Assembly (NCBI GenBank): GCA_030148025.1
Contig: JASBUG010000009.1
Location: 124,001-188,000, forward strand
From: Flavobacteriaceae bacterium
GTDB taxonomy: Bacteria; Bacteroidota; Bacteroidia; Flavobacteriales; Flavobacteriaceae
DNA: 64,000 nt
Direction of reading: 5' to 3'
The notes under the pieces are model-generated. The model made no database searches. It worked only from the letters and a program-made list of their open reading frames with translations, and was not told the DNA's origin. This document shows, piece after piece, positions 28,394 to 38,009 of this stretch. Made by a program: the position numbers and the translations under genes. The first letter of the stretch is position 1. The number at the start of each line of letters is the position of its first letter.

Positions 28394-31300
28394 ATGAAAA
28401 CAAAACCAGCCAAAACTGTTGAACAATTCTTAAAAGAAATTCAGGAATTGCAAAATAAAATTGACGAGCTCAAAAAATTTGAAGCTAACTCAAACGCTGC
28501 GAAAAACCGAATCTCAATCCCAGAGTTAAAAAGTCTAATTTGGCTTGAAAAATCTCCTGTTTGCACAAAAATTGTTGACTTAGATTTTAATCTTCAATAT
28601 ATGAGCAACTCGGGTGTGTCAATGCTTAAAATTGAAGATATAACTAACTTTTATGGCAAACCATATCCTTTAGGTTTCTACCCAGAGCTTTTTAAATCTT
28701 CGATGCAAAAACACCTTCAGGAAACAAAAACTACAAATAAAACTATAACTTTTGAAGCACCTTTTCAAAATGAACAAGGTCATGAAACGTGGTTTCAATC
28801 AACATTAATTCCAATTAATGATGAAAAAGACAAGTTAGACTATATTCTAGTTGTGTCATTAGACATTACTACTAGAAAACAAGCAGAGCTTAAATTAATC
28901 GAAAATGAAGACAAGCTCAATAACGCCTTAGAAATAACAAAATTAGGCACATTCTCCTATGACGATAATACAGGATTATTTGAAACGTCTTCAATAAGTG
29001 ATTTAATTCTTGGTATTGATGACACCTACATAAGAGATGTAAACGGATGGGTTAATTTGGTGCACCCTGAAGATTATGAAAATGCTCAACAGTTATTAGA
29101 TAACTCAGAAGTAAAATCAATTTCAACCGAGTTTAGAATTGTTCGTCCTGTAGACAAAAAAATTATTTGGATTTTAGGGCATGCAAAAAAAGAATTTGAT
29201 CAAAATGGAGAACGCACCAAAGTTACTGGAACAATTCAGGATGTAAGTGAACGTAAAACAGCCGAGAAAAACCTACGCTTAAGTGAGTTGCGATTACGCG
29301 AAGCACAATCGGTAGCTCGTATTGGTAGTTTTGAAGGTACTATAAATGATGATGAACTTTGGTGGTCTGAAGAATTATTTAATCTATTTGGATTGAAAGC
29401 TCCAAACCTCAACATGACCAAAGAAGGATTTGACAAATTAGTGCACCCAGACGACAAAGATCAATACATGGCAGCATTAACAAACTGCCTTGAAACTGGT
29501 AAATCATTTAAAAAAGATTTTAGAGGCAAACACACCAGTGGTGAATGGCTTTACTTTGAAACTGTTGCTGGAGTAACATATGATTCTGAAGGAAAAATAT
29601 TTGGGTTACGTGGAACTGTTCAAGACATTACCGAACGTAAAAAAGCTGAACAGATTATTAGAGAAAATCAAATCTTCAATGAATCTCTTTTAAAGACTAC
29701 ACCAGATATTATTTATGTATATGACCTTGACAAAAAGACAAATGTATACACCAATGATGGCAATTATAAAGTACTAGGCTATACAGCTCAGGAAATTATT
29801 GATTTTGACGACAAACTTGTTGAAAAGCTTTTACATCCTGAAGATTTTGCAGAATATAAACTCAAGATTATTCCTAAATATAACACTATAAAAGATGGCG
29901 AAGTCATTGAGTACATTAATAGATTAAAACACAAAAAAGGACATTGGATATGGATGCAATCTAAAGAGATTGTCTTTAAACGAGAAAACGACAAAGCCAT
30001 ACAAATTTTTGGAATCGCTGAAGATGTCACTAAACGAAAAGAAGCTGAAGAAAGGTTAAAAATAGCAAAAGCGCGACTTAAAAACACTTTCGACCTTTCT
30101 CCAAGTATTATTGCAACAGTAGATGTAGCAAAAAATCAATTTATTGATGCCAGTGCTGCTGTAACCAGAATTTTAGGGTATAGCATTAAAGAGTTTACAT
30201 CAAAACCTTTTTATGCTTTTATTCATCCAGAAGACCTTGAAAGAACTTCAAAAACTGTTGAAAAGAAACTAAAGAAACACGATTTTGAAACTTTCGAAAA
30301 TCGCTATATCTGTAAAGATGGCACATACAAATGGATCTCGTGGCAAGGCACCAAACCAAATAGTGATGGTGAAGTAACAGCGATAGGAACAGATGTTACT
30401 GAAAGAAAAAAGGTTGAGATAGATTTAAAAAGAAGTGCGGAACGCTTTGAAAGATGGAAGTCTTCAAATTTCATAGGAATTATTCAATCAAATGCTGCTG
30501 GAGATATCATAGATGCAAATGACACCATCTTAAATATGTTGGGTTATACCAAGAAAGAAATGCAAGAAGGAAAGTTAGATTGGACAAAGTTAACTCCTCC
30601 TGAGTTCTTACACTTAGATATGGCCGGAATTAAAGAAGCAGAAGAAAAAGGCTATTGGACCCCTTTTGAAAAAGAATACTTCCATAAGGATGGTCATAGA
30701 ATTCCAATCATAATTGGAGGGTCTTTGTTTGAAGAAACACAAAAAGAATTTATTGTTTTTGTAGTTAATCTTACAGAAAGCAAAAAAATAGAAAAAGACT
30801 TAAAAGAAAGTGAACAATTTCTAAATCTAACTGGAGAAATTGCTAAAGTAGGCGGCTGGGAACTAAATCTTTTGTCTAAAAAAGTAAAGTGGTCTCGTGA
30901 AACTAAACGTATTCATGAAGTAGATAAAGAATACGAACCAAGTTTAGAAACTGCCATAGATTTTTACCATGAAGACGATAGAGAATTAGTAAAAAAATGC
31001 GTTTCGGAATCTATCGAAAAAAATAAACCTTACAATTACGAAGCAAGGATAATTACTGCCAAAGGGAATTTAAAGCATGTAAAAGCTATAGGACATCCTG
31101 TATTTGAAGAAAATACTTGTGTAAGACTTTATGGAGCTTTTCAAGATATCACTGAAAGAAAGAAAATTGACGCCGAATTAGAAACGTATCGCAAACAGCT
31201 AGAAACAGAAAACATATTATTAAAACAAGAAATTTCGCTAGCCTTCAATTTTGAAGATATGGTTTACTCAAGCGTAGAAATGAGTAATGTTTTAAATATG

Positions 31301-32185
31301 GTAGAACAAGTATCTACAACCGATGCAAATGTTTTAATTCAAGGAGAAACAGGAACAGGAAAAGAACTCATCGCCAAAGCAATTCATAATACAAGTAGAC
31401 GTAAGAATCATCCTTTAATACGTGTAAACTGTGGTGCAATTCCATCTGAACTAATAGAAAGTGAATTATTTGGTCATATAAAAGGTTCTTTTACAGGGGC
31501 TATTAATAACAGAATAGGAAAGTTTGAATTGGCAGATGGAGGAACACTGTTTCTAGATGAAATTGGCGAAATGCCAATAGCCTTACAACCAAAGCTTTTA
31601 AGAGCTATTCAAGAAGGTGAGATAGAACCAATTGGCAGTTCAGAGTTACGTAAACTAGATGTCAGAATAATTGCAGCTACCAATAAAAACTTAAAAGAAG
31701 AGATTGAAAAAAAACACTTTAGAGAAGATTTATATTTTAGATTAAATGTATTTCCAATAAATGTTCCTGCTTTAAGAGACAGGATTTCAGATATTCCAGT
31801 TTTAACCGAATATTTTGTAACTAAATATTCAAAAAAACACGGTAAAGACATTAAATATATTTCAGACATTACCATGAGTGAAATGAAAGATTATAATTGG
31901 CCAGGTAATGTACGAGAACTTGAAAACTTAATTGAACGTGCTGTAATTATATCTAATCAAGATGTTCTAATAATGCAGGATTTTGATAGCTCATCTATCA
32001 ACAATACAAACATTAAAAACCACAGACTCACTTTAGATCAAGTACAGAGAAACCATATTCTAAAAACCTTAAAAGATACTAGTTGGAAAATTGATGGCGC
32101 TGATGGTGCTGCTGAATTATTAGACATAAAACCTAGCACATTACGAGATAGAATGAAAAAACTAGGCATTGAAAGACCTAGTTAG
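28394..32185 (+). CDS. multi-PAS sigma-54-dependent transcriptional activator
   Basis: A 1263-residue enhancer-binding protein. After a short coiled coil (about 5-30), seven PAS/PAC modules follow. Their ends are marked by D[IV][TS]ERK-like sequences near residues 160, 283, 412, 547, 668, 792 and 920. The AAA+ domain (about 945-1190) has Walker A GETGTGKE at 984, the sigma-54 contact loop as GSFTGA at 1031 (canonical GAFTGA), and Walker [12 protein letters not shown] Fis-like HTH ends the protein (about 1210-1260). There is no receiver or kinase domain, so PAS ligands or redox state probably control it directly. The 3' flank holds candidate binding sites and a sigma-54 promoter. Confidence 0.92.
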
Positions 32186-32189
32186 AGCG

Positions 32190-32250
32190 TCCACGGTATT
32201 TCGTGGAATCACAAAAAAAGCTCTTTATTAATCTCGGTATTCCGTGGAAT
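32190..32250. promoter_or_regulatory. Two phased palindromic repeats, candidate activator sites
   Basis: Site 1 (32190-32209) contains TCCACG-GTATTT-CGTGGA with perfect 6-bp arms. Site 2 (32231-32250) repeats CGGTATTCCGTGGAAT with one change in the shared core. The sites are 41 bp apart, about four helical turns, so on the same face. They lie about 95 and 137 bp upstream of the sigma-54 -24 element, the usual place for enhancer sites. Site 1 could also fold as an RNA hairpin at the end of the activator mRNA. Confidence 0.6.
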
Positions 32251-32333
32251 TAAAAATACCACCTTTTGAACTCCTCCTTATACTCCCTTACATATCAACG
32301 TTTTAAAATATTACTATTATATAATGAATAGTT

Positions 32334-32348
32334 TGGCACCACTGTTGC
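32334..32348 (+). promoter_or_regulatory. Sigma-54 (-24/-12) promoter
   Basis: TGGCAC-CACTG-TTGC, followed by TT, matches the sigma-54 consensus TGGCAC-N5-TTGC at every conserved base. Transcription is expected to start near 32360 on the plus strand. The only downstream protein gene is on the opposite strand, so the product must be a short transcript ending at the terminator at 32471-32508. Confidence 0.75.
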
Positions 32349-32359
32349 TTATAAGATAA

Positions 32360-32508
32360 ATAAATCCTAATAATATCCTTATTATTATAGAATTGAGACA
32401 TCTTTAACAAGTCTGTTGGATTAATAACAATTGACAATGTATTAAAAATCCCTAACGAAAGATGTTATACGACTAAAGTGAGTTCCATACTCACTTTAGT
32501 CTTTTTTA
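32360..32508 (+). ncRNA. Candidate sigma-54-driven small RNA, about 150 nt
   Basis: The interval between the sigma-54 promoter and a strong forward terminator has no meaningful reading frame; the longest ATG frames are two and four codons. It contains an AT-rich hairpin near 32365-32390 (ATAATA-TCCT-TATTAT) and single-stranded stretches that could base-pair with targets, and it ends in the terminator stem with a U run. The arrangement recalls activator-controlled sRNAs such as Vibrio Qrr, though no sequence relation is claimed. The start is predicted from the promoter, not measured. Confidence 0.55.
32471..32508 (+). terminator. Forward intrinsic terminator
   Basis: The 13-bp stem GACTAAAGTGAGT / ACTCACTTTAGTC with loop TCCAT is followed by six U on the plus strand. 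On the minus strand the sequence after the stem is GTATAACATC, without a U run. The signal therefore ends a plus-strand transcript and is not well suited to the minus-strand usp gene. Confidence 0.9.
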
Positions 32509-32527: not shown

Positions 32528-33361
32528 TTAAATCTTGAATGTCATTACAGGTAGCGAAGAGTGATTAGCAATATCCTCTCCTATGCTACCAGCAAAGAAA
32601 TGCGATACACCTTTTCTTCCATGAGTAGGTATCGCTATTAAATCGGCTCCAACTTTATTAGCAAAATTCAAAACACCTTGTTCAACACTATAGTCTGCCT
32701 GATAAGCAACATCATCAATCCTGTCTAAATTACCATCAGCAGTAACTAAAAATTCTGCAATCTTTTTTTCAATCTCAACAGAACTCTTGAAATGCTCATT
32801 TGGTAAGTTTACATACAAGAGCACTAATTTGGCTCCAAGAAGATCAAACAATTTGGTAGCGTTTAGATAAGGACGCACATTTTCTTCTTCAAAATTTGTT
32901 GCAAAAACCACTGTACCAAAATCAACGCTGTTAAGCTCATTCTTAACTACCAAAACGGGTATATCTGCATTTCTTACAACTCTTTCAGTATTAGAGCCAA
33001 CAATAAACTCTTTAAAGCCACTTGTACCATGCGACCCCATAACAATCAAATCGGCATCATTTTCTTTTGCAGCATCATTAACCTCACTAAACACTTTAAA
33101 ATGCTTAACAACTGGAGTTACCTTAACATCTTTTAAGTACTCTTGATTTAAAAAAGAATTAAACTTCTTTTCTACAAGCTTTAGAAAGAAAACAGCTTTT
33201 TGCTGTTGTTCACTATCACTTTTTGTTAGTAAAACATCAGACATCTCTAACATATGTAATGCCAGTAATTCTGCATCATTCTTTTTTGCCAGTTTAGCTG
33301 CAGTTTTTAATGCATATTCAGAGTGTTCTGAAAAATCGATAGGTACAATAATTTTTTTCAT
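32528..33361 (-). CDS. tandem universal stress protein
   Basis: A 277-residue cytosolic protein with two UspA domains (about 1-142 and 150-277). Both nucleotide-binding signatures are visible: GSHGTSGFKEFIVGSNTE and PTHGRKGVSHFFAGSIGED. Usp proteins support survival under stress and low oxygen; the biochemical role is unclear. It starts 26 bp after hemN ends, so it is probably the second gene of the FNR-type hemN operon. That link to low oxygen is inferred from the shared promoter. Confidence 0.88.
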   Translation of the reverse strand: MKKIIVPIDFSEHSEYALKTAAKLAKKNDAELLALHMLEMSDVLLTKSDSEQQQKAVFFLKLVEKKFNSFLNQEYLKDVKVTPVVKHFKVFSEVNDAAKENDADLIVMGSHGTSGFKEFIVGSNTERVVRNADIPVLVVKNELNSVDFGTVVFATNFEEENVRPYLNATKLFDLLGAKLVLLYVNLPNEHFKSSVEIEKKIAEFLVTADGNLDRIDDVAYQADYSVEQGVLNFANKVGADLIAIPTHGRKGVSHFFAGSIGEDIANHSSLPVMTFKI

Positions 33362-34882: not shown

Positions 34883-36091
34883 ATGCAAAAAGTATCCTTT
34901 ACAAATAAAGATGGATTAAAATTATCAGGACGCCTTGAGCTTCCAGCAAATCAACAGCCTCATAATTTTGCTCTATTTGCTCATTGTTTTACATGTACTA
35001 AAAACTTATCTGCTATAAGAAATATTAGTCGTGCATTAACTTCTCAAGGCTTTGGCGTTTTACGCTTTGACTTTACTGGACTAGGTGAAAGTCATGGTGA
35101 CTTTGAAGACACCAATTTTTCTGGAAATGTAGACGACTTATTAAGTGCTTCCAATTTTCTAAAATCTCATTATAAATCACCTACACTTATTATTGGACAT
35201 TCATTAGGTGGTGCGGCTGCCATTTACGCTGCAGCAAATATAAACTCTATTAAAGCAGTAGCCACTATAGGAGCTCCATCAAACCCAAAACATGTGCAGC
35301 ATTTGATAAAAAGCAGTATTAATGAAATAAATAAAAATGGTAAAGCAGTTGTTAATTTAAGCGGGAGAGATTTCACCATAAAAAAACAGTTTTTAGATGA
35401 TCTTGAAACCAACTCTATATACAATGTGGCAAGTAATCTTAGAAAAGCGTTACTTATTTTACACTCACCACAAGACACTACAGTTGGCATAGAAAATGCT
35501 GAAAAAATTTATAAAGCCGCACATCACCCTAAAAGTTTTATCTCTTTGGACGGTGCCGATCATTTATTATCAAATAAAGAAGATTCAATATATACAGGAA
35601 ATGTAATAGCAAATTGGGCTAAACGTTACTTAGACATTACAAAACAAGCACAAATCAAAACCAGTCATCAGGTAGTAGCAAACTTAAATATCGAAGATGG
35701 CTTTACAACTCAAATGAAAGTTGGTAACCATTATATGGTAGCAGACGAACCATTAACATATGGTGGAAACGACTTTGGCCCATCACCCTACGAGCTAGTA
35801 TCTGCAGGCTTATCAGCCTGTACAGCTATGACTATTAAAATGTATGTAAATCGCAAAGGTTGGGACTTAAAGAATGTTGAAGTACATACATCTTATTCCA
35901 AAACACATGCAAAAGACTGTGATGCTTGTGAAGATAACACATCCAAGATAGATACGTTTGAAAGAGACATAAAATTAACAGGAAATCTTGATAAAGAACA
36001 AACCAAAAGAATTTTACAGATAGCAGATAAATGCCCAGTACACAAAACCTTACACAACGACACACAAATAATCACAAAACTTATAACATAA
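34883..36091 (+). CDS. bifunctional alpha/beta hydrolase - OsmC family protein
   Basis: A 402-residue fusion. Residues about 1-245 are an alpha/beta hydrolase with nucleophile elbow GHSLGG near residue 107, oxyanion region AHCFTCTKN, and a late His in DGADHLL. Residues about 260-402 are an OsmC domain, with the redox Cys in SAGLSACTAMT and the second in ADKCPVHKT. OsmC proteins reduce organic hydroperoxides. The hydrolase could release peroxidised acyl groups for the OsmC half to reduce, but that is inference. An extra CDACED segment lies in the OsmC part. It is divergent from hemN and precedes the superoxide dismutase gene. Confidence 0.9.
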   Translation: MQKVSFTNKDGLKLSGRLELPANQQPHNFALFAHCFTCTKNLSAIRNISRALTSQGFGVLRFDFTGLGESHGDFEDTNFSGNVDDLLSASNFLKSHYKSPTLIIGHSLGGAAAIYAAANINSIKAVATIGAPSNPKHVQHLIKSSINEINKNGKAVVNLSGRDFTIKKQFLDDLETNSIYNVASNLRKALLILHSPQDTTVGIENAEKIYKAAHHPKSFISLDGADHLLSNKEDSIYTGNVIANWAKRYLDITKQAQIKTSHQVVANLNIEDGFTTQMKVGNHYMVADEPLTYGGNDFGPSPYELVSAGLSACTAMTIKMYVNRKGWDLKNVEVHTSYSKTHAKDCDACEDNTSKIDTFERDIKLTGNLDKEQTKRILQIADKCPVHKTLHNDTQIITKLIT

Positions 36092-36836: not shown

Positions 36837-38009
36837 ATGAATCCTTCGGCTAGTGGTTGGATAAAAAAACTCCAAAAAGAAACTTCAAATAATGATACGC
36901 TATTAAAGCTTCCTCATGATAGCTTTTATGAGCACTTGAGAAATTGTGGTTTTATTTATGGAAGTAATCTATTTGTGGTTAATAATCTAATTGACAAAAA
37001 GGACTTGACAAATGAAGAATTAAGCAAAATTAATCTTTATTCTTCATTACAATATATCCATTTTAAAAGTGGAAAATCTATTAATTTTTTAGAGAGTGCT
37101 ATTGCATTTTATAAAGACATAAAGGTACACAAGATCTCTTTTTTTAACAGCATTATAATCAATAACACGACGTCATCAACTCTGGAAAAGATAATACATA
37201 AACGTGTTCAAATTGACGATAATCTGCTAACTAAAAACTTCAACTATTTTGTTATTAATGCACTTCTATATGTTGATGTTCTAGCCTATCAAGAGTATTT
37301 AAAAAAGGGGTCTATTTCTAGTGATTATATAAAAAAATTAGAAGCATCTATTGAAACTATTGTTCTTGAGACGCTAAATACAAAAATCAATAAAACGCCT
37401 CATGACGAAAGTTTAATTAAGCTGGTTGAATCGTCATTAAGATATCAAGATCATGTCGACATTTCTTATTCTGAAGCCATAAAAAATCTAAATTCTGATC
37501 ATGAAAAATGGTACTTGTTAGACATAGCTTGCATGTCTACTTGGAGTGATAAAACTATTGATAGTAAAGAACAATCATTTTTACAGAAACTTGGGTCAGA
37601 TCTTTCTTTAGACAAAACAACTGTTGATGAGTCTATTAACTCTGTCAATACATTTTATTCAAACAACAAAGACAATATTGCACTCTTAAGTTCGTCAAAT
37701 ATTGTAAAAAATTTCTACGATAACTCCAGTAAAATGGTTAATAAGTTAATCTCTAGAAATAAAAAACGCCTTAAAAAAGAGCTCGTACAAAGCAAGCAGT
37801 TGGTTAAGCTTATTAGCCAATCAACTATCCGAGACCTGTCTGAAGAAGAACAAAAACAGCTTCAGGAACAACTTTTAGATATTATTAAAGCAATTCCTAG
37901 TTTAGCAATATTTTTGCTTCCTGGAGGCGCATTATTGCTGCCTATTTTTGTAAAATTTATTCCTAAGTTATTACCATCAGCTTTTGATGACAACAGAATA
38001 GAAGAGTAA
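36837..38009 (+). CDS. LETM1-related, TerB-like domain protein
   Basis: A 390-residue protein of the group annotated in Bacteroidetes as LETM1-related biofilm-associated. A TerB-like acidic helical region lies at about 225-280 (EKWYLLDIACMSTWSDKTIDSKEQ). The C-terminal LETM1-like part has DLSEEEQKQLQEQLLDIIKAIP followed by a hydrophobic segment (about 358-385) with LLPGGALLLP and FIPKLLPSAF. No signal peptide is present, so it is probably a cytosolic protein attached to the inner membrane by its C-terminus. The function is not established. It ends 3 bp from the convergent S41 gene. Confidence 0.75.
   Translation: MNPSASGWIKKLQKETSNNDTLLKLPHDSFYEHLRNCGFIYGSNLFVVNNLIDKKDLTNEELSKINLYSSLQYIHFKSGKSINFLESAIAFYKDIKVHKISFFNSIIINNTTSSTLEKIIHKRVQIDDNLLTKNFNYFVINALLYVDVLAYQEYLKKGSISSDYIKKLEASIETIVLETLNTKINKTPHDESLIKLVESSLRYQDHVDISYSEAIKNLNSDHEKWYLLDIACMSTWSDKTIDSKEQSFLQKLGSDLSLDKTTVDESINSVNTFYSNNKDNIALLSSSNIVKNFYDNSSKMVNKLISRNKKRLKKELVQSKQLVKLISQSTIRDLSEEEQKQLQEQLLDIIKAIPSLAIFLLPGGALLLPIFVKFIPKLLPSAFDDNRIEE

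Follow-up and report, generated by a model that had tools for sequence, protein, structure and literature searches.

In Vibrio, the sigma-54 activator LuxO drives small RNAs, and several of these Qrr RNAs have a common seed. Qrr1-4 have been placed under LuxO, and the E. coli GlrR-GlmY/GlmZ system also comprises a sigma-54-controlled sRNA (PMC7602753); in the CbrB-CrcZ/CrcY system of Pseudomonas, a sigma-54 promoter and its activator drive noncoding RNA (PMC8657755). For Flavobacterium psychrophilum, a sigma-54-type (SM4) promoter has been given for the putative RNA Rfp36, whose activator and targets are undescribed in the portion of that paper available to us (PMC9723704). The same portion presents Rfp18, an sRNA acting on secreted-protein mRNAs, which controls metalloproteases and for which no link to sigma-54 is stated there (PMC9723704).

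The stretch of DNA analysed here, hereafter the window (64 kb, positions 1-64,000), belongs to a genome of the same bacterial family (G000, assembly 88% complete), and next to a multi-sensor activator it probably carries the gene of a short, structured RNA that is preceded by a sigma-54 promoter and would link the sensor to the cell surface. The arrangement resembles LuxO-Qrr in that a sigma-54 activator would drive small RNAs and that several RNAs have one seed, but it differs in the absence of an Rfam match, in an activator with multiple PAS domains and without a receiver domain, in the phylum, in the predicted target, and in a second RNA that is not sigma-54-controlled. CrcZ and CrcY sequester Hfq/Crc, whereas here a seed antisense to an mRNA leader is predicted; with respect to GlmY/GlmZ, there is neither an Rfam match nor a related target. 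The likeness to Rfp36, likewise a putative RNA behind a sigma-54-type promoter, and the difference from Rfp18 with its metalloprotease control are both by description, not by sequence. The original prediction considered a circuit of this kind undescribed in Bacteroidetes, which does not wholly hold, since the Rfp36 promoter, as given in the available portion of PMC9723704, means that the class of sigma-54-driven sRNAs is not unknown in the phylum. What appears to be new is the RNA family, a multi-PAS activator apparently dedicated to that RNA, and a named candidate target.

The activator gene and the unit behind it

The activator gene (28394-32185, plus strand) encodes seven PAS domains, counted by their seven PAC-type linkers, followed by an AAA+ domain (Sigma54_activat, Pfam PF00158, E 3e-72) and a Fis-type HTH. 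Walker A and the loop GSFTGA, a variant of GAFTGA, place the protein among the bacterial enhancer-binding proteins; strong Sigma54_activat proteins number three in G000. To judge by the adjacent genes (cbb3 oxidase, usp and hemN), the signal of the activator may have to do with oxygen or redox. Its orthologs (L146-L171) vary widely in length, from 533 to 2205 aa by open frame, and with it in how many sensor domains they have, while the AAA+ and HTH parts as well as the promoter behind them stay alike.

Directly past the stop codon lie two palindromes, CACGGTATTTCGTG (32192-32205) and, at a distance of 41 bp, CTCGGTATTCCGTG (32233-32246), which are probably the activator sites. In a whole-genome search of G000, CACGGTATTCCGTG at one mismatch or less returned the two palindromes only, and matches with three mismatches were no commoner than in a reversed control. 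At 101 bp past the start of the second palindrome follows the -24/-12 promoter TGGCACCACTGTTGC (32334-32348, plus strand), an exact consensus and the sole exact match in 64 kb, with 0.06 expected from shuffles. Because CACGGTATTCCGTG occurs at just these two places in the genome, as far as its 88% complete assembly reaches, the promoter at 32334 may be the only target promoter of the activator in G000.

The promoter stands directly ahead of a noncoding, terminated unit, the predicted small RNA sRNA1 of about 149 nt (32360-32508, plus strand), its start being set by the position of the -12 element. From 32349 up to the terminator, every frame that has a stop is four codons long or shorter, and the one GTG frame (at 32478) continues inside the terminator stem, leaving the promoter-to-terminator gap of about 120 bp free of protein frames. 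The intrinsic terminator (32471-32508) consists of a stem of 13 pairs (32471-32501) followed by TTTTTTATTT, and its U run is found in the plus direction and not in the minus; beyond it the neighbour usp is convergent (32528-33361, minus strand). The segment 32360-32508 folds much better than its shuffles (z = -5.0), into a predicted 5' hairpin (32368-32387), a helix P1 (32398-32405 with 32458-32465) and a helix P2 (GGAUU, 32418-32422, with AAUCC, 32447-32451), the conserved loop UUAAUAACAAUUGACA spanning 32421-32436. Across the whole window no Rfam covariance match reached the gathering score, the Qrr family included; neither sRNA1 nor the second RNA described below is in Rfam, a lone weak ncS54 match, below threshold, falling on the palindromes of locus L193. 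An activator with seven PAS domains ending at 32185, palindromic repeats where activator sites are expected, a full-consensus promoter, an interval without protein frames, a 13-bp terminator stem with its U run in the plus direction only, and usp on the opposite strand had all been called in the original prediction, and each of them was recovered here, with every coordinate correct.

Farther along the window, a single ORF (34883-36091) resembles, by eye, a fusion of an alpha/beta hydrolase with an OsmC-like domain, and the product of 36837-38009, a bacterial protein, contains a domain of the LETM1 ribosome-binding-like type (PF07766, E 1.4e-9).

Related RNAs and a complementary surface-protein leader

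When the full intergenic stretch was compared as DNA with 60 relatives, it matched the window alone, a genus search found no second genome, and a sample of 397 genomes of the family was required. About 95 nt of the unit match genomes G222 (76%) and G110 (75%), and G254 was added by a covariance model. Run on 40 genomes, a model with P1, P2 and the terminator scored the four RNAs, each from a different genus, at 101-111 bits (E 1e-18 to 1e-20), those of G222, G110 and G254 at 101-106 bits, and gave nothing above 41 bits in the 36 others, 28 of which have a close activator ortholog. Scores below about 50 bits in other genomes were treated as chance; the best of these, in G023, was rejected as a gene end sharing just a hairpin. 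A peptide-pattern scan of genome contigs yielded mostly unrelated activators, among which the RNA model found nothing.

In all four genera sRNA1 sits directly before a convergent usp, and the terminator is conserved in each. MAFFT alignments (A2-A4, A6, A7) put the helices in wrong places, and a model-based alignment (A9) was used instead, the structure model to which it was fitted coming from two of its own rows. Here seven of the eight P1 pairs are altered on both sides, and the covariation score was reached by 0 of 500 shuffles, four genera being a small sample; P2 is paired in 95% of cells, with little variation. The sequence of the 5' hairpin is unconserved, and G222 has a different one. 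Compared with shuffles, the folds of the RNAs from the window, G222 and G110 are better by 4.3 to 5.9 SD, and the loop reads UUAAUAnCAAUUGACA in all four genera, with 15 bases fixed and one position variable.

The exact complement of these 15 bases occurs in G000 at three places: antisense to sRNA1, antisense to a second RNA (C11:69364), and at C29:1075-1090. Exact matches alone were counted, because hits with three mismatches equalled the control. The second RNA, sRNA2 (G000:C11:~69320-69430, minus strand; L250, also L252 and L249), is unannotated and strongly conserved: three genera share an invariant stretch of more than 40 nt, and the RNA has a terminator of its own and the same loop as sRNA1. 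It also has a TATATTTG-type box (TATATTAG in G254) and, upstream, tandem TACGGTTTTyCCGTA-like sites (TACGGTTTT-CCGTA), and its neighbours are a HisKA_3 kinase and a response regulator; from this position, sRNA2 would be under the adjoining two-component system.

The third place lies, in sense orientation, in the leader of the gene G000:C29:1113-8480, whose product is a T9SS surface protein of 2,455 aa containing the domains LamG, GEVED and Por_Secre_tail. All three places recur in G222, its leader being that of the homologous gene (58% identity over the N-terminal 660 residues) and the site occupying the gap between a TATATTTG box and the ATG. Since the loop is complementary to the start of a surface-protein mRNA, sRNA1 is probably a regulatory RNA. 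The window RNA and its leader form 16 contiguous pairs, which none of 2,000 shuffled leaders reached (maximum 13); the own pair of G222 matches at 18 of 19 positions, with one G-U (by eye) and one mismatch, and has a contiguous run of 10 bases only, reached by 33 of 2,000 shuffles. Duplex energies of whole molecules, with z of only -1.8 to -3, are uninformative because long AT-rich RNAs chain, and the accessibility of the seed is partial, part of the sRNA1 loop being paired in the fold prediction. The site is known from two genomes, G000 and G222; the gene was not found in G110 and G254, whose assemblies are 87% and 80% complete. A block of translation would be the likeliest effect of pairing, because the site lies right beside the start codon in G222 and, in G000, beside the point where the mRNA is predicted to begin.

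It is conceivable that the sigma-54-driven sRNA is real and has its main target elsewhere, in another mRNA or a bound protein. The target test covered one kind of site, and the conserved AAUCCC of sRNA1 and AUCCCU of sRNA2 could serve as a second seed. We regard this as unlikely, if worth keeping in mind, given that the exact complement stands in homologous leaders of exactly those two genomes that have both the RNA and the gene, at an expectation of about 0.06 such sites per genome (estimated from base composition), and that the site is absent from the target homologs of five other members of the family, all lacking the RNA, where 6-7 contiguous bases pair.

The promoter in orthologous loci

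The family sample of 397 genomes yielded a group of about 30 activators with 61-75% identity over the last 311 residues, and 29 orthologous loci, the window included, were examined for a downstream promoter. In 26 of them a TGGCAy-N5-TTG promoter is found in the same place, 132-156 bp past the activator stop, mostly preceded by two palindromes about 40 bp apart, whose number and spacing are conserved. Elsewhere this promoter leads into a protein operon with DUF7793 proteins, a PAS histidine kinase and sometimes a response regulator; the RNA as first unit behind it is peculiar to the window. Alignment of the interval from relatives, a check proposed with the original prediction, found promoter, palindromes, stem and terminator conserved and a covarying helix in four genera. 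The compact unit of activator, sites, promoter and RNA that it described is supported by this comparison, with the amendment that most orthologs drive a protein operon, which has been lost in the window.

Distant activators (L013, L014, L015, L018) are followed by ACGATATTTCGT palindromes and a sigma-54-type promoter before an OsmC-like protein and a 2-oxoacid oxidoreductase-like protein (names by eye). As the same layout occurs in the orthologs and in this distant group, the order of activator, two sites, sigma-54 promoter and target operon is, on this comparison, old. In G011 (L021:2433-2850), an ORF of about 40 codons after the promoter, a terminator-like hairpin and transposase-like sequence were seen, and the promoter may drive a very short transcript.

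The four genomes with sRNA1 present three arrangements. In G110 and G254, without a clear sigma-54 promoter or palindrome array directly before it, the RNA is the end of an operon driven by the first sigma-54 promoter. G222 has a second palindrome pair (L192: 3165 and 3205) and a second sigma-54 promoter (3305) directly before the RNA, spaced by 40 and 100 bp as compared with 41 and 101 bp in the window, so that paired sites of conserved geometry, as for enhancers, stand ahead of this RNA as well. The window lacks the operon, and its promoter leads directly into the RNA. In G110 and G254, the stretch from the response regulator to sRNA1 holds a further conserved hairpin of the AGGCATTAG...CTAATGCCT type, without a U run (L193:4870-4965, L232:~2505-2600), which is absent from the window. 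The missing operon, together with a promoter core, TTTGGCACmACTGTTGy, that matches the pre-operon promoter of G110 and G254, makes a deletion that joined promoter and RNA in the lineage of the window the simplest history. In each of the four genomes the RNA thus stands within reach of the same activator, be it as the end of an operon, behind a promoter array of its own, or through deletion of the operon. That three different arrangements keep it there suggests selection for the link between activator and RNA.

Such a deletion could also have left a mere relic, the functionless 3' end and terminator of the lost kinase/regulator operon behind its former promoter, as the promoter drives proteins in most relatives and in G110 and G254, and the window, with the same core, is without those proteins. 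This is quite improbable in view of 75-76% identity over about 95 nt between genera, the compensatory changes in P1, the separate promoter array in G222, and a loop that recurs in sRNA2 and is matched by a complementary leader. We give still less weight to the shared 16-bp motif being a DNA operator of a transcription factor: it holds the palindrome CAATTG and lies beside the start site predicted for the surface-protein gene, but it lies inside the transcribed, structured body of both RNAs, in sRNA2 just before the terminator, and in both genomes it is oriented antisense to the mRNA leader. That the terminator belongs to the activator mRNA, with the region as its 3' UTR and the promoter match incidental, is scarcely credible, for although it stands on the same strand about 285 bp past the stop codon with no other plus-strand terminator-like site between, a 2-kb operon parts activator and terminator in G222, G110 and G254, where the terminator stays with the RNA, and 26 of 29 loci have kept the promoter.

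The proposed circuit and its significance

The reading that we favour, and hold to be reasonably probable, leads from the activator through sites and promoter to sRNA1 and its pairing with the surface-protein leader. The seven-PAS protein would sense a signal, bind the pair of palindromes that follows its own gene and open the promoter at 32334, and RNA polymerase would make the noncoding RNA of about 149 nt ending near 32508. P1 and P2 would display the conserved loop, which would pair with the 5' leader of the mRNA for the giant LamG-type, T9SS-secreted surface protein, most likely blocking its translation; sRNA2, with the same loop and beside a two-component system, would probably act at the same leader site. 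Promoter, sites, conservation and covariation of the RNA, and complementarity are drawn from sequence comparison; transcription, binding of the activator, pairing in vivo, the sign of regulation and the signal we infer.

More tentatively, two unlinked RNAs with one seed and one leader site, the first under the multi-PAS activator and the second beside a two-component system, could give Flavobacteriaceae an RNA switch with two inputs that acts on the cell surface, the activator having shifted in evolution from a signalling operon to an RNA only. Few Bacteroidota RNAs have a known regulator or target; here the sequence puts a name to each part, from the regulator, its binding sites and the promoter to the RNA, its seed and a target leader, and all are testable in one strain.
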